IMG/VR virus record: IMGVR_UViG_3300010391_000108
Location: 1-30,826 of that record
Source of the DNA: a virus
DNA length: 30,826 nt
Strand: one strand, 5' to 3'
Made by a program: the position numbers and the translations under genes. This document shows, one piece after another, positions 1 through 23,981 of this stretch. The notes below the pieces were generated by a model. It was given only the letters and a program-made list of their open reading frames with translations. It searched no databases and was not told the DNA's origin. Position 1 is the first letter of the stretch. Every line of letters starts with the position of its first letter.

Positions 1-293
1 CCCATACTGTGATGGGAGTGGATTATCCCCACACACTTGTCTGGAATATGGAACGGTTCTGCCTCAGCACTAGCTCCATTAGCCTCCTTGTGGGGGGGAA
101 CACTGATGTCCTCAACAAACACATTCTCCTTCTTGGAGATTTTACCTACCATATAGGCTAACCATTCCTGATGGGTATATTCAGCCATAAGCAACTGTAT
201 CTTCTGACTTGCGATGGACTCCAGGAACACAGTAGGACTCTTGGTTAGGGAGCACTGGATTGTTTCCTGGACTGCCTTGGATTTACCCCACAT
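1..293 (-). CDS. JAB/JAMM (MPN-type) metallopeptidase, 3' end cut by window edge
   Basis: The frame is open from the ATG at 293 to the window edge, giving 97 residues with no stop. It shows the JAMM signature: a Glu in the hydrophobic stretch HQEWLAYMVG (E43) and, at residues 88-97, VGIIHSHHSM, whose HxH (H92, H94) would bind zinc. The downstream Ser/Asp (x(7)S x(2)D) lies outside the window. JAB proteins remove ubiquitin or ubiquitin-like modifiers by isopeptide cleavage; in bacteria they pair with E1 and Ubl genes. The start overlaps the end of the preceding gene by 11 nt, and it is the last visible gene of the Ubl/E2/E1 operon. The frame depends on a run of seven G (positions 92-98, C on the coding strand); with seven the frame stays open through HSHH. 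Identity as JAB is strong; a deconjugase role is inferred. Confidence 0.85.
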   Translation of the reverse strand, partial: MWGKSKAVQETIQCSLTKSPTVFLESIASQKIQLLMAEYTHQEWLAYMVGKISKKENVFVEDISVPPHKEANGASAEAEPFHIPDKCVGIIHSHHSM

Positions 294-576
294 AGTAATC
301 AGAATCTCCTTTCCTTATTATGGAGATGTCATTACCACCATACTCTCCATTCTCTGCTACAAGCTGTGTCCCATTTGATAGGACTAATCTGTAGAGTCTG
401 TCACTCCTATCATCAATAATAACCTCTGTGATAGTTGCTCCTTTGAGGGACAAGAACTCATTCTCTTCTTCCTCATCAGCCAAGCAAGCAGAGCAAATAT
501 TAGTGTTGGGGTCTCTTGTTTTCCAGAACTTGTTACCACAGAGTAAGCAGTTCTTCCCACCTTTAACTTCCCACAT
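283..576 (-). CDS. Small zinc-ribbon protein, unknown function
   Basis: 97 residues. CLLC (residues 10-13) and CSAC (about 28-31) form a four-cysteine zinc ribbon, followed by an acidic linker (EEEEN) and a beta-rich C-terminal half. An AGGAG lies 8-9 nt before the ATG at 576. It overlaps the upstream 61-residue gene by 14 nt and the downstream JAB gene by 11 nt, so all three are probably translationally coupled. The function is not recognised. Its position between the E1 and JAB genes makes an accessory role in the Ubl system possible, but nothing in the sequence shows it. Confidence 0.7.
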   Translation of the reverse strand: MWEVKGGKNCLLCGNKFWKTRDPNTNICSACLADEEEENEFLSLKGATITEVIIDDRSDRLYRLVLSNGTQLVAENGEYGGNDISIIRKGDSDYYVG

Positions 577-748
577 TTGAATCTCCTTCTATCTTACCAA
601 TTACCCTCTGTGGGTAGGACATAAAGACAGAATCAGCCTTTATAATTCCTGCCTTATCCAGTTCACGAATGATATATTTGAGTGCATCAAGCAACTCATA
701 CTTGTTCTCATCCAGCCTCTTCTCCAGTTCCTGACCCATCTTACTCAT
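563..748 (-). CDS. Small protein, unknown function
   Basis: 61 residues, mostly helical and charged in the first half (MSKMGQELEKRLDENKYELL), without cysteines or membrane segments. It starts one base after the stop of the 124-residue gene, with GGGAG just upstream, and overlaps the following zinc-ribbon gene by 14 nt. This compact spacing supports a real gene. No family recognised. Confidence 0.6.
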   Translation of the reverse strand: MSKMGQELEKRLDENKYELLDALKYIIRELDKAGIIKADSVFMSYPQRVIGKIEGDSNVGS

Positions 749-749
749 A

Positions 750-1124
750 TTACTTCTCCCTGACAGGTATAATCCTTCTTTGCTTGGCTACTATAACCTT
801 AACTTCTAGGTTATAGTCCTGATAACCACAGGCTACTGCTCTCTTGAACTGAACCTTCCTGATTACATTAGGAAGAAAAATATCCCTCTTAGCGTATTTC
901 TTAGCCCCACTCTTGGTAAGCATAATGTGGAAACCACTCTGATAACTCTCACCCCTTACATATAAATACTCAGGATGCTTCCCAGCCTCAGTCCATACTC
1001 CTATTGGGCAAGGAGTCCTCCTTCGAAAGAGGGAGTGGAGATGATGCCATTTGTCCACCCTGAATACCTGAAATCCTACGCCTTCCTTAACAGGAACATT
1101 ACTGAGTACACTTTCCAGACACAT
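750..1124 (-). CDS. Conserved-type phage protein, unknown function
   Basis: 124 residues. AAAGGAGG sits a few bases before the ATG at 1124, overlapping the end of the E1 gene's stop region. The pattern (a GFHIM segment about residue 70, then a short beta stretch VIRKVQFKRAVACGYQDYNLEVKVIVAKQRRI) resembles small phage proteins I know only as hypothetical; the ending looks like a compact beta domain. It lies directly downstream of E1 in the operon. Function unknown. Confidence 0.7.
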   Translation of the reverse strand: MCLESVLSNVPVKEGVGFQVFRVDKWHHLHSLFRRRTPCPIGVWTEAGKHPEYLYVRGESYQSGFHIMLTKSGAKKYAKRDIFLPNVIRKVQFKRAVACGYQDYNLEVKVIVAKQRRIIPVREK

Positions 1125-1135
1125 AGTCTCCTCCT

Positions 1136-1834
1136 TTAGTATCTCCTTCTTGCTCTAGTTGCTACCACTGTTGGGGTCTCCTGATTACATCTCGCAGTTA
1201 GCCTTCTTTGTCTCTGTACCTGTGGTATACCAATCTCTGATATATCCAGTCCCACTTCCTGGTCTGTATACTTCTCCATCTTACCTACTGCCAGGGCAGC
1301 CACAGTTACAGCTGGCACAACCCAGCTGGGGTTGACAGTGTAGGCTTCCTCCTCCACATCAGTCTTAATCCAGCCTGACACATTGGAGGTAACCATAATC
1401 CTCGTCCCATCATAACCTGCCCTGATATAGTTTACACCCTTCTTCTTACAGGCATTGTAGATGGTAAACTGAGCCTTCGGAGAGTCTGTACAATCCACTA
1501 TCCAGTTACTGATTGATAACTGTATCTCCAGCAATATCCCTTCCAGCTTCTCCTTGACTGCCACAATGATAGCATCTGGTCGGATAGCCTTGATGTACTC
1601 AGCTACCACATCTACCTTAGCCCTGTTGAGTGAGCCTTGGCAGAAGGGGAGTCTGTTCCGATTGGTTTCTTCCATCACATCCCCATCGAAGAGAAAAATA
1701 TTCTCAACACCTGACATAGCAGATAATATAGCAACCCAACTCCCAATTCCTCCACAACCAACAACTGTAATTGAGGAAGGGATAGTTAAGCCAATTTCTC
1801 GTTGCCTGTCATATAGCAAACCATTATCAGGCAT
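1136..1834 (-). CDS. E1-like (ThiF/MoeB/HesA family) adenylating enzyme
   Basis: 232 residues. The nucleotide-binding core is complete: GCGGIG (residues 26-31), the acidic strand end LFDGD (48-52), the ETNRNR segment with the conserved Asn/Arg (56-61), Lys73 in NRAKVDVV, and the DCTDS motif (114-118). Members of this family adenylate the C-terminal glycine of beta-grasp proteins (ThiS, MoaD, ubiquitin). The protein is close to the minimal ThiF length and lacks the paired CxxC zinc motifs of MoeB. Candidate thioester cysteines are C65, C129 and C216; none can be chosen from sequence alone. Its ATG shares one base with the stop of the E2-like gene (TAATG), implying coupled translation. The Ubl, E2-like and JAB neighbours favour a conjugation system over thiamine or molybdopterin synthesis. 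Family call is firm; partner is inferred. Confidence 0.9.
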   Translation of the reverse strand: MPDNGLLYDRQREIGLTIPSSITVVGCGGIGSWVAILSAMSGVENIFLFDGDVMEETNRNRLPFCQGSLNRAKVDVVAEYIKAIRPDAIIVAVKEKLEGILLEIQLSISNWIVDCTDSPKAQFTIYNACKKKGVNYIRAGYDGTRIMVTSNVSGWIKTDVEEEAYTVNPSWVVPAVTVAALAVGKMEKYTDQEVGLDISEIGIPQVQRQRRLTARCNQETPTVVATRARRRY

Positions 1835-2847
1835 TATGTTCTCCTTCCACCCCAGTTTCTAGCTGGGACAGGGTCAACTGGAACAGTAGCAGCTTGTGCA
1901 GCTGTCAGGTCTTGCCATGTTCCTGCAGGTCTTTCCCTCTCCTCTACCACACCTTCCTCACCCATCCTGGTAGCCCTCTCCAGCATAATATCCACGTGGG
2001 GCATACCAGGAGGTTCTCTCATTATAAGGCTGTCCTTGTTAATGGTGGTCAAGGCTCCCATCAGTGTTACTGACAGGTTATACAGGGTCATAACATTCCC
2101 ATCCCATCTTTCAGGCAGCCTGTTCATCCCCCAGCAATCAGCATTATTCCGCCCTCCGTGATAATGCTCAAGCTTCCCACCATACTCATCAAGGAGGACA
2201 GCCTTTATCATCTTCCTAGACCTGCTCCCCACAGTAAAAACCAGGACTACATCTCTTCTTATCTTCTTCTTGTCAGCATCGGATAGCTCATACCTGATAC
2301 CATCATGGTGCATTGTCTGGGGCATATATACCTTGGAGAACAGGTACAGGTAGTTCTCCCCATCTGATGTCACCATACAGTGTGTCTTAGCCAGTACATC
2401 CAGCCCTATCTGGACTTGGGGTAAGGTCTTAGTCTCTCTGAGCTTATAAATCTCTGTTATATAGGAGTTATAGAGACTTCTACCAAGTTCCTTCAGCTTA
2501 TAATTGGAAACCTTTACTTCCTCCATCTTCTTAGCAAACCGATAAGAGATTTCATCTTTTAGTAATCCTGTTAAATCTATTGGGATAAGAGTAGTTCCAA
2601 TACTGACTGTAACCTTCCCATCTATTTCAGGGATAGTGAGATTAACAGGGTCAGGGACTTCCTCTTGTGAAGCAGCAAACCCTGCCAGTATTTGCTCCAG
2701 TGTTACCCCCGAAGAGGTAATGATTCTCCGCAGGTCTACCGCTACAGGACAGTTGGAGTCTATATTGCAGTTCTCGTGGACTCCTATATCCAAAGCCACT
2801 GTAACGCTACTCTTCTCCAGAGCTTTAATGGTGTCTCTGAGGTTCAT
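1834..2847 (-). CDS. E2-like (ubiquitin-conjugating fold) protein, putative
   Basis: 337 residues. The middle and C-terminal part follows the E2/RWD order: a beta meander (VVLVFTVG, MIKAVLLDEYGG), then H-Y-H at 228-230, eight residues, and a Cys-Trp-Gly at 238-240, then a Trp-containing turn and a long helix (MTLYNLSVTLMGALTTINKD). Bacterial E2-like proteins of Ubl operons, and PRTRC-B, show a similar pair of His or HP residues before the catalytic Cys. C238 is therefore the proposed thioester cysteine. The first 150 residues are an additional domain that I do not recognise, and the tail after 290 is Pro/Ala-rich and low in structure. The position directly before E1 and downstream of the Ubl supports the call. 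E2 is an inference from pattern and context; a structural protein of another fold remains possible. Confidence 0.55.
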   Translation of the reverse strand: MNLRDTIKALEKSSVTVALDIGVHENCNIDSNCPVAVDLRRIITSSGVTLEQILAGFAASQEEVPDPVNLTIPEIDGKVTVSIGTTLIPIDLTGLLKDEISYRFAKKMEEVKVSNYKLKELGRSLYNSYITEIYKLRETKTLPQVQIGLDVLAKTHCMVTSDGENYLYLFSKVYMPQTMHHDGIRYELSDADKKKIRRDVVLVFTVGSRSRKMIKAVLLDEYGGKLEHYHGGRNNADCWGMNRLPERWDGNVMTLYNLSVTLMGALTTINKDSLIMREPPGMPHVDIMLERATRMGEEGVVEERERPAGTWQDLTAAQAATVPVDPVPARNWGGRRT

Positions 2848-2982
2848 TTACCTGCCTCCATACAGAAAAGCCCAAGTCGAGGCAATAAAGTAACCTAATG
2901 CTGTATCTACCTTATGCCTGATAATACAGTAGACACCAGTGGCAAAGCACAGTATTCCTACCGTAAGAGCAATATACTTCAT
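2848..2982 (-). CDS. 44-residue membrane protein
   Basis: The short frame starts at the ATG at 2982, which overlaps the stop of the HNH gene as ATGA, and ends with TAA immediately before the ATG of the E2-like gene. Two hydrophobic segments are visible (IALTVGILCFATGVYCII, residues 4-21, and ALGYFIASTWAFLY, 28-41) separated by RHKVD, so a two-pass hairpin membrane protein is likely. The exact fit between its two neighbours, with ATGA coupling, is the main evidence that it is real. Function unknown; it could anchor operon products at the membrane. Confidence 0.65.
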   Translation of the reverse strand: MKYIALTVGILCFATGVYCIIRHKVDTALGYFIASTWAFLYGGR

Positions 2983-3413
2983 TCTAATCTCCTAGCCTCA
3001 TCAGTATGGGTATTTCTAGTCTTATGGGGACAGACACCCTTATTAAGAAACTTTCCTTTATTACAGTTACAGCAAAGTAACTGATAAATAGGGGGGAAGT
3101 TATTTCTTATAATCTGTAAGTAGAATGTCCTCTCTTGAACCTTCCTGTCCTTTGCTCCATCATTATTAACATGGTCAATCTCAAGGAACAGGACTTCTGT
3201 TTCTCCGCAACAGGCACACTTACTACCATAAGCAGTTATTATTTCCTTCCTTAATTTGGCTGTATATCTTTTAAGCCATTCTGCAACATACTTCTTTCTG
3301 TTATTACCAACCTCAGTCCCTTTTATTCTTTCAGAATACTCCTTAGTCGCTTTCCTATACATCTCCCTATTATCTTCTCTATGTTTCTTAACATACTCTT
3401 TGTGATTATACAT
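2979..3413 (-). CDS. HNH endonuclease, free-standing homing type
   Basis: 144 residues. The basic, helical N-terminal 55 residues probably bind DNA. The HNH core follows: zinc-type cysteines KCACCG (65-70), the EIDHVNNDG strand-turn with H81, then LLCCNCNKGK (112-121) and a final GVCPHK. This layout is common in phage homing endonucleases. It lies between the Ubl gene and the E2-like gene, preceded by 270 bp of structured intergenic DNA, and looks more A+T-rich than its neighbours, consistent with insertion as a selfish gene. A weak AGAGG sits upstream. It could also be a host-DNA-degrading or packaging-associated HNH, but the location argues for a homing element. Confidence 0.8.
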   Translation of the reverse strand: MYNHKEYVKKHREDNREMYRKATKEYSERIKGTEVGNNRKKYVAEWLKRYTAKLRKEIITAYGSKCACCGETEVLFLEIDHVNNDGAKDRKVQERTFYLQIIRNNFPPIYQLLCCNCNKGKFLNKGVCPHKTRNTHTDEARRLE

Positions 3414-3458
3414 AAAGGAACTTACCTCTTTCAGCTAACAAGTTGTTATCTTGTCAAT

Positions 3459-3664
3459 ACAGGGGGGGAAGATATTAGTAGTGTGGAACACCCCCCTGTT
3501 TCGGCTTCCCTGCCTAGAGTTTTATCAATCCAGGGTTGGTCTTCGCTCCTGCTCGGTCAATCTCGCTGGTTCCCCCCCTGGTTTGATATTACTTCCAGGC
3601 AGGGTTGCCTGTTTCCTAACCTAAATACCATCCTATAACTGGGAAAGACCGATAGTTTACCCAG
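3459..3664 (-). other. Structured intergenic RNA region with alternative stems
   Basis: Between the Ubl stop and the HNH start there is no convincing gene. Reading leftwards, the transcript would first form a stem from 3664-3656 with 3646-3639 (CTGGG/CCCAG plus an A/T pair run, one bulge), then a 6-bp stem CAGGCA/TGCCTG (3596-3611). A seven-base tract at 3462-3468 can pair either with 3491-3499 (9 bp) or with 3570-3580 (11 bp), which exclude each other. No U-run follows the first stem, so a simple terminator is unlikely. The region could set the Ubl to E2/E1 ratio, process the mRNA, or be the relic of the HNH insertion. Confidence 0.4.
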
Positions 3665-3683
3665 ACGCAGGAGTCGGGATTGT

Positions 3684-4073
3684 CTAACCCACCTTGTCGT
3701 AGCTAGTTATGGCAATCCGCATACCAGACTCGATGGTAGCAGGTGCATCCTCTGGGTTAATCACTTCAGACCCATTGAGGAAGACCCTGTAGTAGCCACC
3801 GTAGTGAGCCTCATCTGCGAGCCGCTCAATAGTGGTGGCAAAGGGAGACCCTGACGGAACTTCCGAGGTTGCCCCTCTGCCCACATCAACGAAGATGGGT
3901 TGACCAGTTGGCTGAGTCCAGCCTGCTGAGGGTACTTCGGTAGGCTCTGCATCTGGCTCGTTCCCTTCACCAGGTTCAGCCTCTTCCTCACCACCATTAC
4001 CAGCTGGGATTAGCCCTCTCCGTCTTGCCTCCTCCTCCGAGATAAAGTGTCCATTCTCATCACGATACGCCAT
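3684..4073 (-). CDS. Ubiquitin-like beta-grasp protein with C-terminal glycine
   Basis: 129 residues. The N-terminus (MAYRDENGHFISEEEARRR) is charged, followed by an acidic Glu/Pro/Gly linker (about 24-50). Residues 58-129 fit a beta-grasp fold of the ThiS/MoaD/ubiquitin type: strand PIFVDVGRG, strand ATSEV, helix PFATTIERLADEAH, strand YYRVFLNGSEV, the INPEDAPATIESG turn that resembles the loop before the last strand in ThiS, then the strand MRIAITSYDKVG. The protein ends exactly at Gly129, so the C-terminus would need no processing before adenylation by E1. It has one terminal glycine rather than GG. GAAAGGAGG precedes the ATG. It is the first gene behind the promoter at 4120-4148 and leads an operon carrying E2-like, E1 and JAB genes. 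The Ubl identity is inferred from length, strand pattern, terminal Gly and context. Confidence 0.65.
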   Translation of the reverse strand: MAYRDENGHFISEEEARRRGLIPAGNGGEEEAEPGEGNEPDAEPTEVPSAGWTQPTGQPIFVDVGRGATSEVPSGSPFATTIERLADEAHYGGYYRVFLNGSEVINPEDAPATIESGMRIAITSYDKVG

Positions 4074-4952: not shown

Positions 4953-5426
4953 TTAATCCTCCTTACTCTTCATTACAGCTTTGGATATTTCCCTTTCCAC
5001 CTTTGCTGCTACAGTGTCACTTATCAGTATCCCATCCAGATGGTCTATCTCGTGCTGGAGCACAATAGCAGTCAGGTCATGTGCCTTGAGGGTGAAGGGT
5101 GTCCAGTCAGGATAGAACCCCCTGACCTTGACTATCTTGTGCCTGCGAGTAACACACCTTACCTGCCCATTACCTACACTGAGGCATCTCTCCACATAGG
5201 AGACCATCTTCTCCGACCTCTTGATAACTTCAGGATTGAGGATTACTTGTATCTCCTCTCCGAACTTGAAGGCAATAATCCGCTTGGGCAGTCCAATCTG
5301 GGGAGCAGCTAGACCTACCCCCGCATACTCCCTCAGCAGTTCATTGACCATAGCCAGCACATCATCCTCCTGTGTTACTGGCAGAGCTACTTCGTGTAGT
5401 CTCTTATCTGGGCTCTGTATAATCAT
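4953..5426 (-). CDS. def: Peptide deformylase
   Basis: 157 residues, the usual length of phage deformylases. All three motifs are visible: motif 1 GVGLAAPQIG (36-45), motif 2 ERCLS (79-83, normally EGCLS), and motif 3 HEIDH (125-129). C81, H125 and H129 would bind the metal and E126 is catalytic. The enzyme removes the N-formyl group from nascent proteins; phage copies are thought to speed maturation of phage proteins made in bulk. The Gly to Arg change in motif 2 is unusual but leaves the metal ligand intact. The start overlaps the upstream zinc-ribbon gene by four bases (ATGA type). Confidence 0.93.
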   Translation of the reverse strand: MIIQSPDKRLHEVALPVTQEDDVLAMVNELLREYAGVGLAAPQIGLPKRIIAFKFGEEIQVILNPEVIKRSEKMVSYVERCLSVGNGQVRCVTRRHKIVKVRGFYPDWTPFTLKAHDLTAIVLQHEIDHLDGILISDTVAAKVEREISKAVMKSKED

Positions 5427-14926: not shown

Positions 14927-16684
14927 ATGAATGATACTGAACTAGCCAATCTGAAGACAGAGATAGCCAATGCCAAGCTCTTCTGGGGTCAGCGTAATCT
15001 GAAGTTCCAGGACTGGTATCAGATACTCATATTGGTAGATGTCTTGAAGAGCAAGGGTATGGAGACCTACGTTAGTAATGAGCCTATGACCTTCTACAAT
15101 ATGGCTCACTACCTGTTGACTAAAGGTACGCTATCCCATACTACTCCTATTGCCAATGAGTCAGCCATAGAGCTGGACAGGATGGCTAAAATCCATAGAG
15201 GCTGTGAGTATATGTGGAAGGTGATAGACAGGGAGAGGCAGCTTGCTGGGGGTCAGACCTACATAGATGACCTGTCCTTCTATATGCTGGTACTTGGCTG
15301 GTATGCTGCAGTAAACCAGTACAGCAAGGATACAGGACTGCTGAAGACTCAGATATGGAATCCCTATGAGGTCTATCCTACCTATGCGAATAACAGGCTG
15401 GTATCTTGTACCCATTCCTATCCTATCACGGAACAGGAGGCTGGGCTCAAGGCTGTTGAGAATGGCTGGGACTACACTGTAAGAGGGACACCTACAGCTT
15501 CCGTTATCCTTGATGATTACTTCCGCTATGTTCCAGGCAGCGGTCTGTACAACATTATCTTCCTGGATGGCAAGGATGTTACTGGTTGGGTAGCTAGACC
15601 AGATATGCAGGTACTGGTATCCCCCATTGGTGGCTTCCCAGACAAGGGTGCTCTTATCAAGAGTGGGAAGACTGACTGGCGGAGACTGGTAGGTCGTAGT
15701 ATCTTTGTTACCAACGAGAGTGTGACTGCCCATTTCAACAAGTGGAAGAGCATGATTTCCCAGATACTGAGGGACACTGCACAGCCTGTAACACAGGAGT
15801 TCAGTGCTTCTCCACAGGCTACACCAGAGCAACTGAGGGAGCGGGGTGCTCTGTTCCATTATGCTCCTGGTGAAGCAGGTCTCCAGCGTGTGCCTCCCCC
15901 AGCTATCCCCCTTGAAGTCCAAGCCCACATGATAGAGCAGCGGAGGGAGATACAGAAGGGCAGCTTCAATGATGCTACCTATGGGATGGTGGAGGGTCAG
16001 GCAGGTTATTCCCTGAGTCTCCTGGCTTCCTCATCCGCCAACCAGATACTGTACCCCTATATGGATGCCAAGCACTTTGTAGTGTCAGAGTCTGATAAGT
16101 TCTGGTTATCCCATACCAAGTTATCTGGTAAGGTCTTCCAGATTAAGGGTAAGTTCATTGAGAAGCTAGAGCCAAAGGAGATACCAGAGGATGTGTACAT
16201 TGAGGTAGATAGCACAGTGGCTACTCCGAAGGACTGGATGGAGAGAGGCACGATAGCCAATATGCTGGACAAGCACCTTGATGAGTCCACTATCATCACG
16301 GAAATCTATGGGATGACTGACCCCCAGGCTATCAAGAGGCGGAGAGACCTTGACTTGATGCTTAACCATCCGATGTCCCAGCTGGTAAAGCTCATAGCTG
16401 GCTACCAAGCCCACGCAGACTACCTTGATAACCGAGGGGATAGCAGACAAGCTACCCTCTTCCGTAAGGCTGCCCAGATGATGGAGTTACAGCTTGGTGC
16501 TCCAGCCCCTGGTCAGGGACAGCCAGCTGATATGTCCAGGATACAAGCCCAGAGAACTGCTGGAGCTCCAGAGGCAGTTAACAGGGTTAATCCAGCGGTA
16601 TCCCCCCCAGAAGCACAGACTGGCTTTTCTCCCCAGCAATTAAGACGCTCTATTGGTAGAGGAAGTCTCCGAGGGATAGGGTAA
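14927..16684 (+). CDS. Portal protein
   Basis: 585 residues, directly after the large terminase with AGGAGG a few bases before the ATG. Typical portal features are visible: an N-terminal helical part, a long mixed core with repeated Trp/Tyr and charged loops (MAKIHRGCEYMWKVIDRERQLAG; NPYEVYPTYANNRLV), a long helix near 430-500, and a disordered Pro/Gln/Ala-rich C-terminus (APAPGQGQPADMSRIQAQR). Portals form the dodecamer through which DNA enters and leaves. The call rests mainly on size and position between terminase and the head genes. Confidence 0.8.
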   Translation: MNDTELANLKTEIANAKLFWGQRNLKFQDWYQILILVDVLKSKGMETYVSNEPMTFYNMAHYLLTKGTLSHTTPIANESAIELDRMAKIHRGCEYMWKVIDRERQLAGGQTYIDDLSFYMLVLGWYAAVNQYSKDTGLLKTQIWNPYEVYPTYANNRLVSCTHSYPITEQEAGLKAVENGWDYTVRGTPTASVILDDYFRYVPGSGLYNIIFLDGKDVTGWVARPDMQVLVSPIGGFPDKGALIKSGKTDWRRLVGRSIFVTNESVTAHFNKWKSMISQILRDTAQPVTQEFSASPQATPEQLRERGALFHYAPGEAGLQRVPPPAIPLEVQAHMIEQRREIQKGSFNDATYGMVEGQAGYSLSLLASSSANQILYPYMDAKHFVVSESDKFWLSHTKLSGKVFQIKGKFIEKLEPKEIPEDVYIEVDSTVATPKDWMERGTIANMLDKHLDESTIITEIYGMTDPQAIKRRRDLDLMLNHPMSQLVKLIAGYQAHADYLDNRGDSRQATLFRKAAQMMELQLGAPAPGQGQPADMSRIQAQRTAGAPEAVNRVNPAVSPPEAQTGFSPQQLRRSIGRGSLRGIG

Positions 16685-16970: not shown

Positions 16971-19900
16971 ATGCCTGACCCAATTTTCCCAAAGTTCCCG
17001 ACTTCGTTCTCACCAGAGGATGAAGACAGGATTAAGCAGCTTGAAGACCAGAGGAAGTCTCTCTCCCAAGCCTACAATGTCAAGTTCTCCCCAGAGGCTT
17101 GGGCTAAGACTTCTGCTCCTGAGAAGTTTGCAAGGGGAATAGCCCCATCCTGGCTTATTGCTCCTGCCAGAATCCTTACTCCTGGGGTGGAAGAGACCAC
17201 TGAGTTTGGCTTTACCCCTGAACAGTTCCAGGAGAAATCCCTAGCCATTGAGCAGGAATATAGGGAACTATCCAGAAAGCAGAAGGTTACAGAGCTTCTT
17301 CCTGGTATCCAAGCTGATGTCCTTGTAGCAGCCTTAGCTGGTAAGCCTATAACAACTCTTGAAGACTTGAAGCACACCTTCCCTGAACTCCAGACAGACT
17401 TCAATGAACAGGAAATAAACTACCTGTCAAGAATGACCCAGGCATTGCTCCAGGCTACTCCTGAACAGATAGCCAGTGGGGAAGTCTTTGCCTATGAGCC
17501 TAACCAGCTTCCTGTAACCGAGGAGGATATTGATGCTCTGGCAAAGGCTGGTATCAAAGACCCTAGATTTATCCACGCCTCTGTGGAGTTCTCCAAAGAC
17601 CTTGAAGGTGTAACACAGGCATTGAAGGATGCCTACCCGTCACAGACTCCAGATGAGGAAGTCAAGAAAGCCCTCAGTGCCAAGCTCAAGGCTTACTTCC
17701 AGCAGAGGAATGTGGAGCTTGGGATTACTACAGGGGGAGATACCAAGCAAGCTATCATAGACCAGCACACCAAGATAGCAGAGAAGGCTGGGACAGCTAT
17801 GACCCTTGTAGGTGAAGACGGTCAGCTGGTATCAGCCAGAAAGAGGTCTGATGGCACAGTCTATGTAGGGGATGAGCTTGTTGGCTATGCTGATGCTAAG
17901 GGTAATGTTGTTGGCTTCAATCTGCAAGGTCAACCTGTAACTACTCCAGAAGAACAAGAACTTCTGGTCAAGGATTACCTGGATGCCTTGTATGTGGCTA
18001 ACCAGCAAGCAGGTCTTGGTCTAAGGAACTTCTTCACCACTATCCTCCCAGACACACTCCTTAATATTGCTGAGAAAGCTGCTCCTGTCATCTACATTGC
18101 TGATGAGAAAGCTAAGGAAGCTCGCCTTAGACAGATACAGGATGTGCGGGAAGACCTTAAAGCAAGATATGAGAAGAGCCAGCTGGAATATAATACCTGG
18201 ATTAAGGAGAACCCAGACCTTGCCCCCAGACCAGAGTGGGTATCTGACCCAGAGAAGAATCCTAAGAGCTTTATCAATCCAGGCAGAATAGGGTATGTCA
18301 TCTTCAGTAATGCCCCCTTGATGGTTGCAGCCTTAGCCACTACCCTTGCAACTACAGTGGTTTCAGGAGGTAATATAGTCCTGGGTTCTTATGCTGGGGC
18401 TGCAGTAATGACCCCTTCTATGACAGCCAGCATTGTTGATGATGCTGTGGAGTCTGGTGCTAACTTTGAGGATGCCACTACCCTTGGCACAGTCGTTGGT
18501 CTAGCTTCTGGAATGGTGGAGATATTCCCCGCAACAGTGGCTATGAGTATCATAAGTCCTACTGTAATGAGACTCTTCAAGCAGGAGTTCAGGAAGGAAG
18601 CTGTTACCCAGGTGGTCAAGGGTCTTATGGCTAGGGGTATTATTGGGGTTGGCATAAAGGCAGCTACCAATATGCTCAAGATTAGTGCTACCGAAATCTT
18701 GGAAGAGAATATCCAGCAGATAATGCAGAACGCCTATGTGAAGGTCTACAATGACAATAGGGGGGTCTTTGATGGTTTACTACAGACAACCATTGATACC
18801 TTCTGGGCAGTAGCCCCCTTATCGTTCATGGGGGGTGTCACATCCTATATGGATATGAAGCGTAACCTACCCCCCAAGGTGCAAGCCCAAATAGAAGCTA
18901 TCGCTACCCCCTTGAAGGGTACAGGTCTTACGGAGGAACACGCTGAGGCTGTGGCTCTGGCACAGGTTATGGAGACTGAGACTGGTCAGGCACAAGTCCA
19001 GCAAGCAGTGGAGAAGGCTGTTGATACTTCTCCCCCTTCAGAAGCTATTACCAGACTGACTAAGGAATCAGACTCTCTCAATCGAGACCTAGAAGAGATG
19101 CGGACTAGACTTGTAAAGAGAGAGAAAGACCTTCCTCTTGCAAGGAACAGGGAAGAAACGGATATAATCCAGTCCGATATTGATACTATGCGGGAGAGTG
19201 TAAGCGATATTAAGGCAGAACTTAGGTCAACTAATGCCAGACTGAGGAAGGTCAAGAAGGCTGTTACTCCCATACCCAAAGTGGGTAAGATAATACCCGA
19301 AGTGGGTATACCCGCTGAGGTTGCACCTGTCCCAGAGGTTACAAAAACAGCTTGGGAAATGACAGTAAAGGAAAGATTTGACAAGGCTGACATCATCCGA
19401 CAAAAGGCGATAGAAGCCCAGAAAAGGGTGGATGACCTACTCAATAAAACTGAGGAACTGCGGAAGAATAAACCAGTTGGTTGGCAAGAGGCAAGAGAAA
19501 AAGCCAATAAAGAAATATTTAAAATCCAAGATGAAATGAAGGCTATGGCAGACGAGATAACGGAGTTACAGACTCCTACTGCCCCCAAAGCAGATACACC
19601 TGAAGTTTCTCCAGTAGAACCTTCCCCCATATTGCAGATTTTAGCCAGGAATGTTGGGATAGCTGCTGGTGAAGCACTGGTTGATAAGACTCCTTTCGCA
19701 GAGGGTGGTAGAGCTGAAATACCCCTTATTACAGTTCAATCAGTATCTGCCAAGATAATAGCCAATGAGCGTCTATCCGTAGAGGAGACCCAGTTCTACA
19801 ATAACAATGTGGATGCTGTGGAGACCCTCTTGGAGGAGGAGTTCAAGAGACTCCAGACACCTGACTCCTTAGTTCCTTCCATTATTGATAAGATACTTAC

Positions 19901-22900
19901 CAGCAAGAGGCTTACTGAGGAAGAGACTCAGTTCTATAATGACCATTCAGAAATCATAGAGAATATCCTGAAGATAGATGAGTTTAAGGGGGAGGCTACC
20001 CTTAGACGTCTTATTCCAGACCTTACCTATGACCCTTCAGTAGCTAGACCCAAGCTCCCTGACCTGGATGAGGAACTAGCAAGGTTTGACACTGCCTTGA
20101 CCAACAATCCAGACATCAAAGCTCTTATTCGCCCTAACAAGGAACTGAAGTCCTTGCGGGATGCAGCCAGGGATACAATCACAAGTCTTCGTACTGATAT
20201 AGAGATAGCCTTGGAAGAGAAAGCTATCCCTAAGAAGAAGCTATCCAAGGAAGAGAAGAAGGATAGGAGGGAGTTCATAGCTGACAAGGAGAAGCAGCTA
20301 AGGGAGATTGGTAAGAAGGCGGGTCTAAGGTCTCGTGACCTCCTTGCTAAAGGTTGGGGAGATTTGACTATAAGGGAGCAATCCCAAGTTACCCTCTCCT
20401 TTGTCCCTGACCATTCCATTTCTTCAGGTGTTGTTGATGATTTGAGGGATACAGCCCTTGTCTTCTCCTCAATGGAGAAAGAGACTGGTCTTCCCTTTCT
20501 CCATCACCTTGAGAGAATGGAGACTATCAGAACCTACTGCCTTCGCTTGCAGGATGAGTACTTTAAGAGAATAGTGAATGTCCCAAGGTGGAGGAAGATA
20601 GTCAGGGATAACAAGAAGATGGCTCAGGTAGCCCTTATCATAGACTCCAGGAGACCTGGCTCTAAGACAGTGGTTAAGCCTCCTGTTACCGAGGAAGAGC
20701 TTCTTATGGTTGAAGTAGCCAATGGTATAGAGACTGTCTTCAAGGAGTGGCAGCCTATTGTCAGATTCCAGAGGTTCATAGAAGCCTATGAGGAGAGTTC
20801 CAATGTAGAGGCTATCCATGCTAAGATACCTGATGCTCCTATTGCAGATATTGAGGCAGCCAGGAACTTGATGGAGACCCAGGGGGAAGATGCTCTTTGG
20901 AGATTCCTCAGTGATAAGGAGTGGGGCGTCTACAAGAGTGGTTATAGCCCCTGGAGAATCAGTCAGCCTAACCTGGAACTGGATGAGCCCAGTTGGTCTA
21001 TGGTGAGAGGGGCTAACTACCTTATGTCCAGAGATTCTACTCAGATGCCCTGGGAAGCCCAGAAGGGTCTTCTTAGAACTTATGACTCCTATAACTTCGC
21101 TATGGCTATGAGGTACTTTCTTCGGAGAGAAGTTCAAGACTTGGCTGATACCTTCAAGGTGTCCTGGGATAAGTGGACTGACCCTAACCACGTTCAGGGA
21201 TATATCAGGAAGTATCTTAGGGCAGCCCAAGGCTTCCCTGATGAGGATGCTCATGTCATGCTCAGGATAATGAGGAAACTGCAGAGCTGGTCTCACCCGA
21301 ACATATTCTGGCATCCTTTTGTTGGGACTAGAAATGTTATTCAGGGTGCGTGGAGTCATCCTTACAGGTCAGAGCTAATTAAGTCTTTATGGAAGTACAA
21401 TAAACTTCCTGCTGACTTCAGGTATCAAGCCGAAGAAAGACGTGCTACTGTGCTTGACCAGTCTGGTAGACCCCTCAGAAACTGGATGTTCCAGGATGAG
21501 GAAATAAACATACTTGGGGAAGTGCCTGATTGGGTTGAGAAAGCCTTCCTCCCCTTCAAGTTTGTTTCCAAGGGCTTTGACTTCCTTGCTGCCCAGACAG
21601 CCAAGATACCTACGATTGCCATTACTGATAAAATATCCAGGTCAGCTTCCTATCATGCTTCACTTGTTAAGGCTTGGGATGCTACAGAGCAATACAGGAT
21701 AGACCAGAACGCCCAGAAGTGGTTTGATAACTCAGGCATAAATAGTGGCTATATCTCAAGGGAACAGCAAGAGCATATATTGGGTTTGTTTGCTCTTAAA
21801 GAAGATAAGGTGTCTTGGGCTATTTCTGGTCTTCAGGACATTACTGGTTACAGGGCAGCTGTCATCAGGATTGCGGAGGAGACCACCAACAGGACTCTGT
21901 ATCTGTATGATAAAGCAGCTGCAGCTGGTGTTCATCGTGGTGGTGGGAGAACTTTCTCCAGCCTCTTCACCTTCTCAAGAAGTACAATCCAGATGTATGG
22001 GATGCAGTTTGCCAGAGCCCTCAGCAAGGACTCCACAGTAAGTGAAAGACTTGCTGCTACCAAGAATATTGTCTTACTTTGGCTTACTGGAGAGATACTC
22101 AGTTCCCTCCTTTCCTTTGCTTCAGGAAGAAGGAGCAAGGAGTACACAGTAGTCAATACCCTTACCTGGTCTTTCGGTGGTCTTGGGATTGGTATAGCTC
22201 GTGATACCTTTGACTTCTTGGCGGATATTGCCCTGGCTTCCTTCGGGGATGATGAGGATAAGGAGCGTGTTACATCTCGTATCCCTGCAGAGGCATCCAG
22301 ACTTGGGAATGTCCTACTTGGCTTCTACAGCTTCACTATGGATGCCATAGAAGCTGCTACCGATGAACAGAAGGGTCTTGACATAAGGTGGTTCAGACAG
22401 GTAAGGGCTCTCTTTGATGAGAACTATACTCCTGAACAGAAGGAGAAAGCTGAGAGGGATACTCTCCAGATAGTCCAGAAAATCCTTATGGGGGCAGATG
22501 CCCCTGACCCAGACATCTTTGAGAGGACAATGGAGACTCTTACCAAGGAAGAAGACAGGCTAGGGGAGGTTGGTGTTAAAGGGGACTTCTATACCCTTGG
22601 GGACTTTGGCAGCAAGGTAGAAGCCTCAACAAAGATTATCCCTGAATATCTTCTTACTGAAGAAGCAGGGTTCTCAGACCTGGCACTCTTCTATTTACAG
22701 TCCAGAGATAGATGGGCAGAACTCTATACCCTCCCATCAGAGGAAAGACCTGAGTGGAGGAAGAACCACGTTGAGGAGGAAGCTATGCTCCTCTTCTGGG
22801 AGAAGAATGATAAGTCTGTCTTCAGGATTGGAAGCAGAGAATGGCAGGAGTCAAGGGCTCTAATCAAGATGTGGCTGGACAGGTACAAGATAGACAGGTC

Positions 22901-22961
22901 TATGTATGGCAAGTGGGCTAACTGGTACTTGCCTATACAGATACCCAGTCCTACCCCTTGA
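16971..22961 (+). CDS. Giant virion-associated protein (1996 residues)
   Basis: A single frame of 1996 residues between the portal and capsid genes. The N-terminal 420 residues are alpha-rich. Residues about 440-580 hold a series of hydrophobic, Gly/Ala-rich helices (MVAALATTLATTVVSGG; IVLGSYAGAAVM; VVGLASGMVEIFPATVA). A long coiled coil follows (about 700-770 and 800-860). Around 930-1000 a 26-residue element ending EETQFYN is repeated twice. The C-terminal third is Trp/Arg-rich, with more hydrophobic stretches near 1700-1760. This resembles the large phage polyvalent/internal virion proteins that are injected with DNA in short-tailed phages, or a fusion of several such parts. No protease or transglycosylase motif was recognised. 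Its position next to the portal supports ejection or internal-core function. Confidence 0.65.
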   Translation: MPDPIFPKFPTSFSPEDEDRIKQLEDQRKSLSQAYNVKFSPEAWAKTSAPEKFARGIAPSWLIAPARILTPGVEETTEFGFTPEQFQEKSLAIEQEYRELSRKQKVTELLPGIQADVLVAALAGKPITTLEDLKHTFPELQTDFNEQEINYLSRMTQALLQATPEQIASGEVFAYEPNQLPVTEEDIDALAKAGIKDPRFIHASVEFSKDLEGVTQALKDAYPSQTPDEEVKKALSAKLKAYFQQRNVELGITTGGDTKQAIIDQHTKIAEKAGTAMTLVGEDGQLVSARKRSDGTVYVGDELVGYADAKGNVVGFNLQGQPVTTPEEQELLVKDYLDALYVANQQAGLGLRNFFTTILPDTLLNIAEKAAPVIYIADEKAKEARLRQIQDVREDLKARYEKSQLEYNTWIKENPDLAPRPEWVSDPEKNPKSFINPGRIGYVIFSNAPLMVAALATTLATTVVSGGNIVLGSYAGAAVMTPSMTASIVDDAVESGANFEDATTLGTVVGLASGMVEIFPATVAMSIISPTVMRLFKQEFRKEAVTQVVKGLMARGIIGVGIKAATNMLKISATEILEENIQQIMQNAYVKVYNDNRGVFDGLLQTTIDTFWAVAPLSFMGGVTSYMDMKRNLPPKVQAQIEAIATPLKGTGLTEEHAEAVALAQVMETETGQAQVQQAVEKAVDTSPPSEAITRLTKESDSLNRDLEEMRTRLVKREKDLPLARNREETDIIQSDIDTMRESVSDIKAELRSTNARLRKVKKAVTPIPKVGKIIPEVGIPAEVAPVPEVTKTAWEMTVKERFDKADIIRQKAIEAQKRVDDLLNKTEELRKNKPVGWQEAREKANKEIFKIQDEMKAMADEITELQTPTAPKADTPEVSPVEPSPILQILARNVGIAAGEALVDKTPFAEGGRAEIPLITVQSVSAKIIANERLSVEETQFYNNNVDAVETLLEEEFKRLQTPDSLVPSIIDKILTSKRLTEEETQFYNDHSEIIENILKIDEFKGEATLRRLIPDLTYDPSVARPKLPDLDEELARFDTALTNNPDIKALIRPNKELKSLRDAARDTITSLRTDIEIALEEKAIPKKKLSKEEKKDRREFIADKEKQLREIGKKAGLRSRDLLAKGWGDLTIREQSQVTLSFVPDHSISSGVVDDLRDTALVFSSMEKETGLPFLHHLERMETIRTYCLRLQDEYFKRIVNVPRWRKIVRDNKKMAQVALIIDSRRPGSKTVVKPPVTEEELLMVEVANGIETVFKEWQPIVRFQRFIEAYEESSNVEAIHAKIPDAPIADIEAARNLMETQGEDALWRFLSDKEWGVYKSGYSPWRISQPNLELDEPSWSMVRGANYLMSRDSTQMPWEAQKGLLRTYDSYNFAMAMRYFLRREVQDLADTFKVSWDKWTDPNHVQGYIRKYLRAAQGFPDEDAHVMLRIMRKLQSWSHPNIFWHPFVGTRNVIQGAWSHPYRSELIKSLWKYNKLPADFRYQAEERRATVLDQSGRPLRNWMFQDEEINILGEVPDWVEKAFLPFKFVSKGFDFLAAQTAKIPTIAITDKISRSASYHASLVKAWDATEQYRIDQNAQKWFDNSGINSGYISREQQEHILGLFALKEDKVSWAISGLQDITGYRAAVIRIAEETTNRTLYLYDKAAAAGVHRGGGRTFSSLFTFSRSTIQMYGMQFARALSKDSTVSERLAATKNIVLLWLTGEILSSLLSFASGRRSKEYTVVNTLTWSFGGLGIGIARDTFDFLADIALASFGDDEDKERVTSRIPAEASRLGNVLLGFYSFTMDAIEAATDEQKGLDIRWFRQVRALFDENYTPEQKEKAERDTLQIVQKILMGADAPDPDIFERTMETLTKEEDRLGEVGVKGDFYTLGDFGSKVEASTKIIPEYLLTEEAGFSDLALFYLQSRDRWAELYTLPSEERPEWRKNHVEEEAMLLFWEKNDKSVFRIGSREWQESRALIKMWLDRYKIDRSMYGKWANWYLPIQIPSPTP

Positions 22962-23540: not shown

Positions 23541-23981
23541 TTGCCCTCTGATTTAGAGGTAGCTTATCTAGCTGGTCTGATTGATGGTGAAGGGTGTCTG
23601 AGAATTGAGAAGAGTGGTGGTAAATATAGATATACTCCTCATACCCCAACAGTCTGTATTACCAACTGTAATCCTTCCCTGATTTTGTGGGTTTACAGGA
23701 AGTTTGGTGGACACCTTTACCAGAAAAAGAATAGGGGTACTTTTCAAGTAACTTGGGATATTTACTGGTTAGGGAGAAAAGCCACTGAACTCCTTGAGGA
23801 TGTTTACCCTTACCTGACAGCTAAGAAGGAGCAAGCTGAATTGATGCTTTCCTACAGAGAGCTTATTGGAAAACCAGGAAAGAAGCTCTCAGAGGATAAT
23901 ATCTCAAAAAGATGGGCAATAATAGAAGCTATGAAAACATTAAAAAGAAACAACCAAGTTTTGGTAAAGGAGGTGGACTAA
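23541..23981 (+). CDS. LAGLIDADG homing endonuclease, single motif
   Basis: 146 residues, TTG start with AAGGAGG upstream. The motif YLAGLIDGEGCLRI (9-22) is the catalytic helix with the acidic residue at the end (D15/E17 region). The family cuts a specific DNA site and copies its own gene into it. One motif means that it acts as a dimer. It sits between the scaffold and major capsid genes, without intron signals, and is A+T-richer than its flanks; its last codons provide the capsid gene's ribosome binding site (AAAGGAGG). Confidence 0.85.
   Translation: MPSDLEVAYLAGLIDGEGCLRIEKSGGKYRYTPHTPTVCITNCNPSLILWVYRKFGGHLYQKKNRGTFQVTWDIYWLGRKATELLEDVYPYLTAKKEQAELMLSYRELIGKPGKKLSEDNISKRWAIIEAMKTLKRNNQVLVKEVD

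Follow-up and report, generated by a model that had tools for sequence, protein, structure and literature searches.

The stretch of DNA analyzed here (the window) is the whole IMG/VR virus record IMGVR_UViG_3300010391_000108, which is linear, fragmentary, and 30,826 bases long. Between positions 1 and 4073 its minus strand carries genes for a ubiquitin-like protein (Ubl), a protein resembling ubiquitin-conjugating enzymes (E2), an activating enzyme (E1), and a JAB/JAMM protease. These four open reading frames (ORFs) had been proposed to form a single-strand operon in an earlier examination of the letters and translations (the sequence-only reading), and all four were verified (Table 1). The evidence described below supports, at a probability of roughly 0.7 to 0.75, an interpretation drawn from sequence in which the module is a compact, reversible phage Ubl-conjugation system. 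The plus strand of the window contains a terminase gene (Terminase_6C domain, 0.00085, just under the Pfam cut-off), a gene directly after it (positions 14927 to 16684) that is portal-like by position only, and a gene encoding a GP7-type major capsid protein (1.7e-12). The first 10 kb of the minus strand hold a series of small genes, of which the conjugation operon is the last, at the contig edge.

Relatives of the module were recovered from IMG/VR. A scan with the Ubl returned locus L002 and an alignment-based scan returned L003; degenerate patterns for the JAB and Ubl motifs added about a dozen contigs, and an E2-motif pattern, used as an independent bait, brought in 41 more loci that contain an E2-family ORF. 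IMG/VR scans with the single E2 or E1 protein of the window gave no match because the exact peptides differ. The family totals 56 loci in 49 clusters (95% E2 identity), including one doubtful cluster (L113) represented by a 48-amino-acid fragment only. L002 encodes the Ubl, E2 (32% identical to that of the window), E1 (63%), and JAB protein (63%) in the order seen in the window and does not contain the HNH, membrane, and zinc-ribbon genes found there. The Ubl gene is upstream of E2, and E1 and then JAB are downstream, in all loci with flanking sequence except L072, in which no E1 is present within the 0.6 kb of downstream sequence available. The E2, Ubl, and JAB baits independently retrieve the same four-gene block, and the order cannot be put down to chance because dozens of divergent viral contigs share it; conserved co-occurrence in related phages, the lack of which would have counted against the sequence-only reading, was thus found.

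Pairwise-distance Mantel correlations among the four proteins range from 0.66 to 0.84 (permutation p of 0.001), and the ratio of nonsynonymous to synonymous substitutions (dN/dS) is 0.07 to 0.26 in closely related pairs. These values indicate that the four proteins co-evolve and that their genes are under purifying selection and are not decaying cargo. We conclude that the module is a real, widespread phage gene family. Searches by tblastn with the E2 proteins of the window, L062, and L059 gave no E2 match among 50,697 GenBank phage records, which suggests that work on cultured phages has not included this family; plasmids likewise gave no match. No report of a phage Ubl-E2-E1-JAB module was found in the open-access papers searched, and an earlier mention in subscription papers is possible.

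The Ubl comprises a conserved N-terminal segment of about 24 amino acids, a disordered linker, a predicted beta-grasp domain at about residues 58 to 128, and a C-terminal glycine. In the window it ends in YDKVG, with a single glycine rather than a GG pair (Gly129, codon 3689-3687). The AlphaFold2 (AF2) model made from the family alignment has a predicted local distance difference test score (pLDDT) of about 90 or more for residues 60 to 120 and of 82 in the final block, and the elements of the C-terminal domain follow the order beta-beta-alpha-beta-beta. Structural comparison using VIA-align gave Z scores of 6.6 to 7.8 against ubiquitin-fold proteins, including SUMO, ISG15, ubiquitin, the RAF RBD, and the archaeal ubiquitin of Caldiarchaeum, and these matches to the model fit a ubiquitin fold without singling out one family. 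The protein thus combines a predicted beta-grasp fold, modeled at high confidence, with an exposed C-terminal glycine, as expected of a beta-grasp modifier and as the sequence-only reading had suggested. Gly129 is invariant (11/11) in the alignment made before the E2 motif was used as bait. Across 42 family clusters a glycine is present at this position in 38 and an alanine in 4; the glycine is the very last residue in 22 clusters and is followed by 1 to 6 residues in 16. Neither the Ubl nor the E2-like protein could be identified in scans against Pfam, PHROGs, NCBIfam, and PADLOC.

The E2-like protein carries the motif HYH-x7-CWG (codons 2166-2134), in which HYH occupies residues 228 to 230 and the candidate catalytic cysteine is Cys238 (codon 2136-2134). 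Its AF2 model, also made from the family alignment, has a mean pLDDT of 77, with most of residues 160 to 290 at about 80 to 96. E2s of the UBC fold head the VIA-align rows for this model, with Z scores of 5.7 to 4.3 over about 120 residues; the best match (Z of 5.7) covers 122 residues in the span 142 to 292, and the E2 of the bacterial E1-E2-Ubl complex 8tyz is found lower among the matches. The HYH..C segment of the model comes after the final strand of the meander and before the next helix, which is the position of the active site in E2s, and the His-to-Cys spacing of the window protein equals that from HPN to Cys85 in UbcH5b. Residues H228, Y229, H230, C238, G240, N270, S273, Y174, and P176 are invariant in all 13 sequences not picked by this motif, so that a cysteine preceded by an HPN-type histidine motif is found in 13/13 unbaited sequences. 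In the larger set of loci the E2 motifs HYH and DCWG had in part served as bait, and the other residues cited for that set are unbaited; the E2 columns N515, S518, and P524 (alignment numbering) are near-invariant in it. These results agree with the earlier description of the 337-residue protein as E2-like, and its UBC fold, to which the predicted model shows a modest similarity, is likely rather than proven.

Variants of the E2 gene were seen at several loci. Tandem duplicates are present within the module at L085:303-2045 and L102:1-1746, the E2 of L098 is divided into two ORFs, and the E2 proteins at L008:1544-3211 and L013:1-1572 carry long additional regions. In a Pfam scan of the E2 family, one member matched DUF4314 and another an SH3-like repeat.

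The E1 contains GxGGxG at residues 26 to 31, R61, K73 (codon 1618-1616), and D117, and the nucleotide-binding motifs noticed earlier in this gene are accompanied by a strong Pfam ThiF match. R10, GxGGxG, D50, N58, R61, K73, and D117 are invariant (14/14) in the alignment made before the E2 bait and stay near-invariant in the larger set. Profile matches in the PDB include ThiF, MoeB, UBA5, Uba1, BubCD, and Cap2. With its ThiF match, GxGGxG motif, and invariant catalytic Arg, Lys, and Asp, the protein belongs to the E1-like (ThiF/MoeB/UBA) adenylation superfamily, which is defined by a Rossmann-type fold that binds ATP, and the positions correspond to Arg73, Lys86, and Asp130, the catalytic residues of MoeB (PMC12355090). 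The three residues that the sequence-only reading had singled out for mutation are all strongly conserved in the family, E2 C238 and E1 K73 being invariant and Ubl Gly129 nearly so.

The HSHH motif reported for the JAB gene is present at residues 92 to 95, along with Glu43; the gene is truncated, its product ending in GIIHSHHSM at the contig end, and its Ser and Asp ligands are deduced from relatives. The JAB protein of L002 continues as HSHHSMGAFHSATD, which completes the JAMM signature. E43 and HxH are invariant in the alignment made before the E2 bait, and in clusters that include the region the JAMM ligands (Glu...HxH-x7-S-x2-D) are conserved throughout (Glu in 36/36, HxH in 35/35, Ser and Asp in 34/34). 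The closest match of the JAB family profile is the AMSH-like deubiquitinase Sst2 (7e-6), and Pfam Prok-JAB matches 12 of 14 JAB members.

The E1 tree contains two supported clades, lineages A and B (100/98 each). Lineage A comprises the window, L002, L003, L006, L012, L015, L017, L090, and the divergent L008 and L013; the sequences of their E2 and Ubl suggest that L030 and L122 also belong to it. The phage backbone of the window is common to the contigs of L002, L003, L006, L015, and L017 and is barely or not shared, in the stretches examined, by those of L012 (contig G007), L008 (G005), and L013 (G008). In lineage A, whose phages are smaller, the genes downstream of JAB include those for a primase/helicase-type ATPase (AAA_25, 1.6e-20; PHROG DNA primase) and an exonuclease-like protein. 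The L030 copy of the module (Ubl and E2) is on a 4.4-kb contig in a Dehalococcoidia (Chloroflexota) metagenome-assembled genome. A search for the E2 in 393 genomes of the same class and 400 of the same phylum found that 4.4-kb contig only and thus gave no indication that host chromosomes among the sampled genomes carry a version of their own. The copy gives a weak hint of Dehalococcoidia-like hosts for lineage A, and the contig may be mis-binned.

Contigs of lineage B reach about 235 kb, and in them the module is part of a fixed block in the order clamp loader (gp44, gp62), sliding clamp (gp45), Ubl, E2, E1, and JAB. The loader subunits match PHROG 168 (large, 1e-58) and PHROG 225 (small, 7e-18), and the clamp matches PHROG 223 (down to 3.6e-9). 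In 32 clusters the Ubl is preceded, at a distance of 35 to 1166 bp, by a clamp-family gene, and such a gene is present at every lineage-B locus for which the sequence upstream of the Ubl exceeds 0.7 kb. Mantel correlations between the four proteins and the clamp are 0.51 to 0.67. Just downstream of one lineage-B module (L061:127-1737, minus strand), a gene encodes a Ro/TROVE-like protein with a vWA-type segment, as judged by eye.

We interpret the clamp block as a sign that the Ubl system is functionally connected to replication. The block is confined to a single clade and may be a case of frozen synteny, meaning that the adjacency of clamp and Ubl in lineage B is an ancestral arrangement of no functional significance and that the target of the system is unrelated to replication. 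This explanation, which we rate as quite possible at somewhat less than even odds, accounts for the finding that a single supported clade of the E1 tree holds all of the clamp-linked modules, whereas it leaves three observations less easily explained: the order survives although the clamps in the set have a median identity of just 38%, insertions of varied length between clamp and Ubl are tolerated, and lineage A, with an unrelated backbone, also adjoins replication genes.

A place among replication genes could also be explained if the phage Ubl were conjugated to host proteins, such as immune sensors or effectors, in order to inactivate them, since replication-side genes are typically early and the position of the module would then reflect early expression. 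Known bacterial Ubl systems act largely in anti-phage immunity (for Cap2, see PMC12355090), which fits such a counter-defense role. However, no recognizable defense or counter-defense gene is found beside the module in the neighborhoods inspected, and an invariant place behind the clamp across divergent phages is unexpected for genes that usually turn over fast; we consider this role rather unlikely. The sequence-only reading had proposed host or virion proteins as the tagged targets, whereas the neighborhoods of the module suggest that replication proteins are the targets. Tail proteins of phages are modified by the bacterial Bil system, and lambda TAPI/TAPK brings a ubiquitin-like domain together with a JAB domain in the assembly of the tail, so that tagging of capsid or tail proteins while virions assemble can be argued by analogy only. 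The module is, however, on the replication side, on the strand opposite the terminase and capsid genes of the window, and shows no link to structural genes in the neighborhoods inspected, which makes virion tagging very improbable.

Several results weigh against the Ubl-conjugation interpretation and its connection to the clamp. Foldseek alone found no significant match for the E2 model in the PDB or BFVD, no sequence profile connects the E2-like protein to a known E2, and the fold similarity is modest (VIA Z of 5.7), so that the identification of the E2 rests on VIA-align together with motif position and context. No catalytic cysteine is shared by the E1 family as a whole (the only family-wide cysteine is in the adenylation-core DCTD, and other cysteine columns all reach about 60% or less); the E1 thus lacks the separate thioester-forming cysteine of canonical ubiquitin-type E1s and resembles activators of sulfur carriers. 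The identity of the clamp comes from PHROG 223 matches for 5 of 14 scanned members and from the adjoining gp44 and gp62 genes, a clamp profile compared with PDB sequences gave no clamp match, and the linkage, limited to one lineage, may have been inherited as synteny.

The nature of the E1 bears directly on a sulfur-carrier function, in which the E1 would form a Ubl thiocarboxylate that donates sulfur (to modify nucleotides or tRNA, for example), the cysteine protein would be a sulfurtransferase, and JAB would trim the carrier. Such a function is in keeping with a ThiF/MoeB-like E1 without a conserved catalytic-cysteine domain and with the JAB-Ubl pairs known in sulfur pathways (Iyer 2006, PMC1779556). 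It is at odds with the modeling of the cysteine protein as a UBC fold with HxH..C at the E2 active-site position and with the AMSH-like character of JAB, and no rhodanese, cysteine desulfurase, or sulfur-assimilation gene was noticed in the neighborhoods inspected; we regard it as improbable. In the conjugation interpretation, the E1 is taken to be MoeB-like and would pass the adenylate directly to the E2.

The window contains five further genes within the module, which were set apart from the core because tblastn found no match to them in the family loci available at that stage (Table 1). The sequence-only reading had counted the membrane miniprotein and zinc-ribbon genes as parts of the system, and it had placed a zinc-ribbon or otherwise unassigned partner where an HNH endonuclease is in fact encoded; HNH, membrane, and zinc-ribbon genes were rejected as members of the system, being unmatched in relatives. 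The HNH gene is probably a mobile insertion, since its relatives sit elsewhere in G002 and G005. The overlapping starts and stops described earlier are present at 1834, 2979-2982, 563-576, and 283-293, and the Ubl and the next gene are instead about 270 bp apart. This noncoding gap is predicted to be strongly structured, as are gaps of similar length at L002:8367-8658 (z of -2.4) and L003:8382-8771 (z of -6.4), all three being from lineage A and folding better than shuffled sequences. Rfam gave no match to it, and DNA alignment of the gaps yielded no convincing shared element. The gap between Ubl and E2 (or Ubl and HNH) in these three lineage-A phages is a possible regulatory RNA or attenuator.

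Table 1. Features of the module region of the window, core genes first
Feature	Position	Strand	Basis
Ubl, 129 amino acids	3684..4073	minus	AF2, VIA-align, family conservation
E2-like protein, 337 amino acids	1834..2847	minus	AF2, VIA-align, motif conservation
E1, ThiF/MoeB-type adenylation domain, 232 amino acids	1136..1834	minus	Pfam ThiF 4e-25
JAB/JAMM protease, N-terminal 97 amino acids, rest cut off by contig end	1..293	minus	Relatives, family profile
HNH endonuclease, not core	2979..3413	minus	PHROG 5e-9; none in module of relatives
Putative membrane miniprotein, 44 amino acids, not core	2848..2982	minus	ORF, hydrophobic by eye
ORF between E1 and JAB, 124 amino acids, not core	750..1124	minus	No family match
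ORF, 61 amino acids, not core	563..748	minus	Unmatched in relatives
ORF with CxxC...CxxC zinc-ribbon-like N terminus, 97 amino acids, not core	283..576	minus	Weak zinc-ribbon matches
Noncoding gap from Ubl to next gene, predicted strongly structured RNA	3414..3683	minus	Fold z of -4.4

Elsewhere in the window, a peptide deformylase-like protein (recognized by motif, by eye) is encoded just upstream of the operon at 4953-5426 on the minus strand, and G009 carries a relative upstream of its own Ubl (L015:4219-4692). A very large protein of 1996 amino acids (16971-22961, plus strand) is common to lineage-A phages at 26 to 40% identity, and a LAGLIDADG-like homing endonuclease ORF, seen by eye at 23541-23981 on the plus strand, immediately precedes the major capsid gene.

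Bacterial Bil and Bub operons contain Ubl, E1, E2, and protease genes, the same gene classes as those of the phage module, and the likeness extends to the E1 profile, which matches BubCD structures, and to the presence of the 8tyz E2 among the structural matches. The phage module differs in being phage-borne, in having separate E1 and E2 genes, and in being tied to a sliding clamp rather than to defense islands, and PADLOC gave no match to Bil or another Ubl system beyond the E1 domain. Operons of Iyer type 6d are taken here to be PRTRC. They are the closest in layout, with a separate small Ubl whose C-terminal Gly is conserved, an E2-like protein, an E1-like protein, and JAB (PMC1779556). Type 6d E2s, however, have a downstream histidine and none upstream, whereas the phage E2 has an invariant HYH upstream of the cysteine, and type 6d operons include an extra alpha-helical protein; no conserved fifth gene was seen in the phage neighborhoods inspected, which were not searched by structure. 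NCBIfam PRTRC models gave weak matches far under their cut-offs (PRTRC_A at 0.01 to 0.05 and PRTRC_ThiF at 8e-7), and PRTRC_B and PRTRC_C were unmatched. Membership in PRTRC was rejected because no model matched above its cut-off and the arrangement of E2 histidines differs.

Similarity of the E1 domain and a JAMM partner are shared with Cap2/Cap3 of the cyclic oligonucleotide-based antiphage signaling system (CBASS) and with 6A-MBL systems. Cap2 is an E2-E1 fusion that ligates CD-NTase rather than a Ubl (PMC12355090), whereas the phage module encodes a beta-grasp Ubl, and its E1 and E2 are separate genes at every locus, unlike the fusions of Cap2 and 6A-MBL. The module also differs from lambda TAPI/TAPK, whose domains are in tail-assembly genes, since it adjoins replication genes. 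In Crassvirales (e.g., uncultured phage cr111_1, MT774387, locus L067), JAB and ThiF genes are found beside DNA primase, uracil-DNA glycosylase, and exonuclease genes and are preceded by a protein with H-S-H...C-x-G, giving the order (candidate E2)-JAB-E1, unlike that of the module described here. This candidate E2 was rejected as a relative of the module E2, showing no profile similarity to it (hhalign probability of 0.35%). The Crassvirales set (L067 and L007) appears to be a second, separate phage module of Ubl type. Two other phage loci with JAB and E1, one (L005:2200-5660) with JAB then E1 plus a candidate E2 (HPHI..CLG) and a small Ubl-like ORF and the other (L010:3147-6452) with E1 then JAB and upstream candidates only, are different modules or branches.

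Gene identity, predicted folds, residue conservation, gene order, co-evolution, and purifying selection were computed directly here, and from them we infer all of the catalytic steps and the substrates. In the minority of phages with 1 to 6 residues past the glycine, JAB would trim the Ubl tail; in the window the glycine is already last. The ThiF/MoeB-type E1 would adenylate the C-terminal glycine, and the Ubl would then move to the invariant cysteine of the E2, probably straight from the adenylate, since the E1s of the family share no catalytic cysteine. The E2, in which HYH replaces the eukaryotic HPN, would transfer the Ubl to an amine of the substrate with no dedicated ligase (E3) involved, and JAB would also remove the Ubl again. 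The likeliest substrates would be phage replication proteins, because the module directly follows the clamp gene in lineage B and adjoins the genes for the primase/helicase-type ATPase and the exonuclease-like protein in lineage A; we advance this assignment, suggested by gene order, at not far below an even chance. Reversible attachment of the phage Ubl to the sliding clamp itself is more doubtful. Equally tentative is a ubiquitin system of the viral replisome, in which the phage would place its own Ubl on the clamp (or on the clamp loader or polymerase) as a counterpart of PCNA ubiquitylation and SUMOylation; the likeness to these eukaryotic pathways would be conceptual only, consisting in a Ubl modification associated with a sliding clamp, and no E3 was found here.

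Bacterial Ubl conjugation systems studied to date serve mainly in anti-phage defense. If the interpretation given here of this widespread and vertically conserved module is correct, phages themselves use ubiquitin-type signaling, probably on replication, and tagging of the replisome could, for example, switch between replication, recombination or repair, and late transcription. The module would also offer a minimal four-protein cascade, with an E1 apparently without a catalytic cysteine and with no E3, for considering the evolution of ubiquitin signaling.

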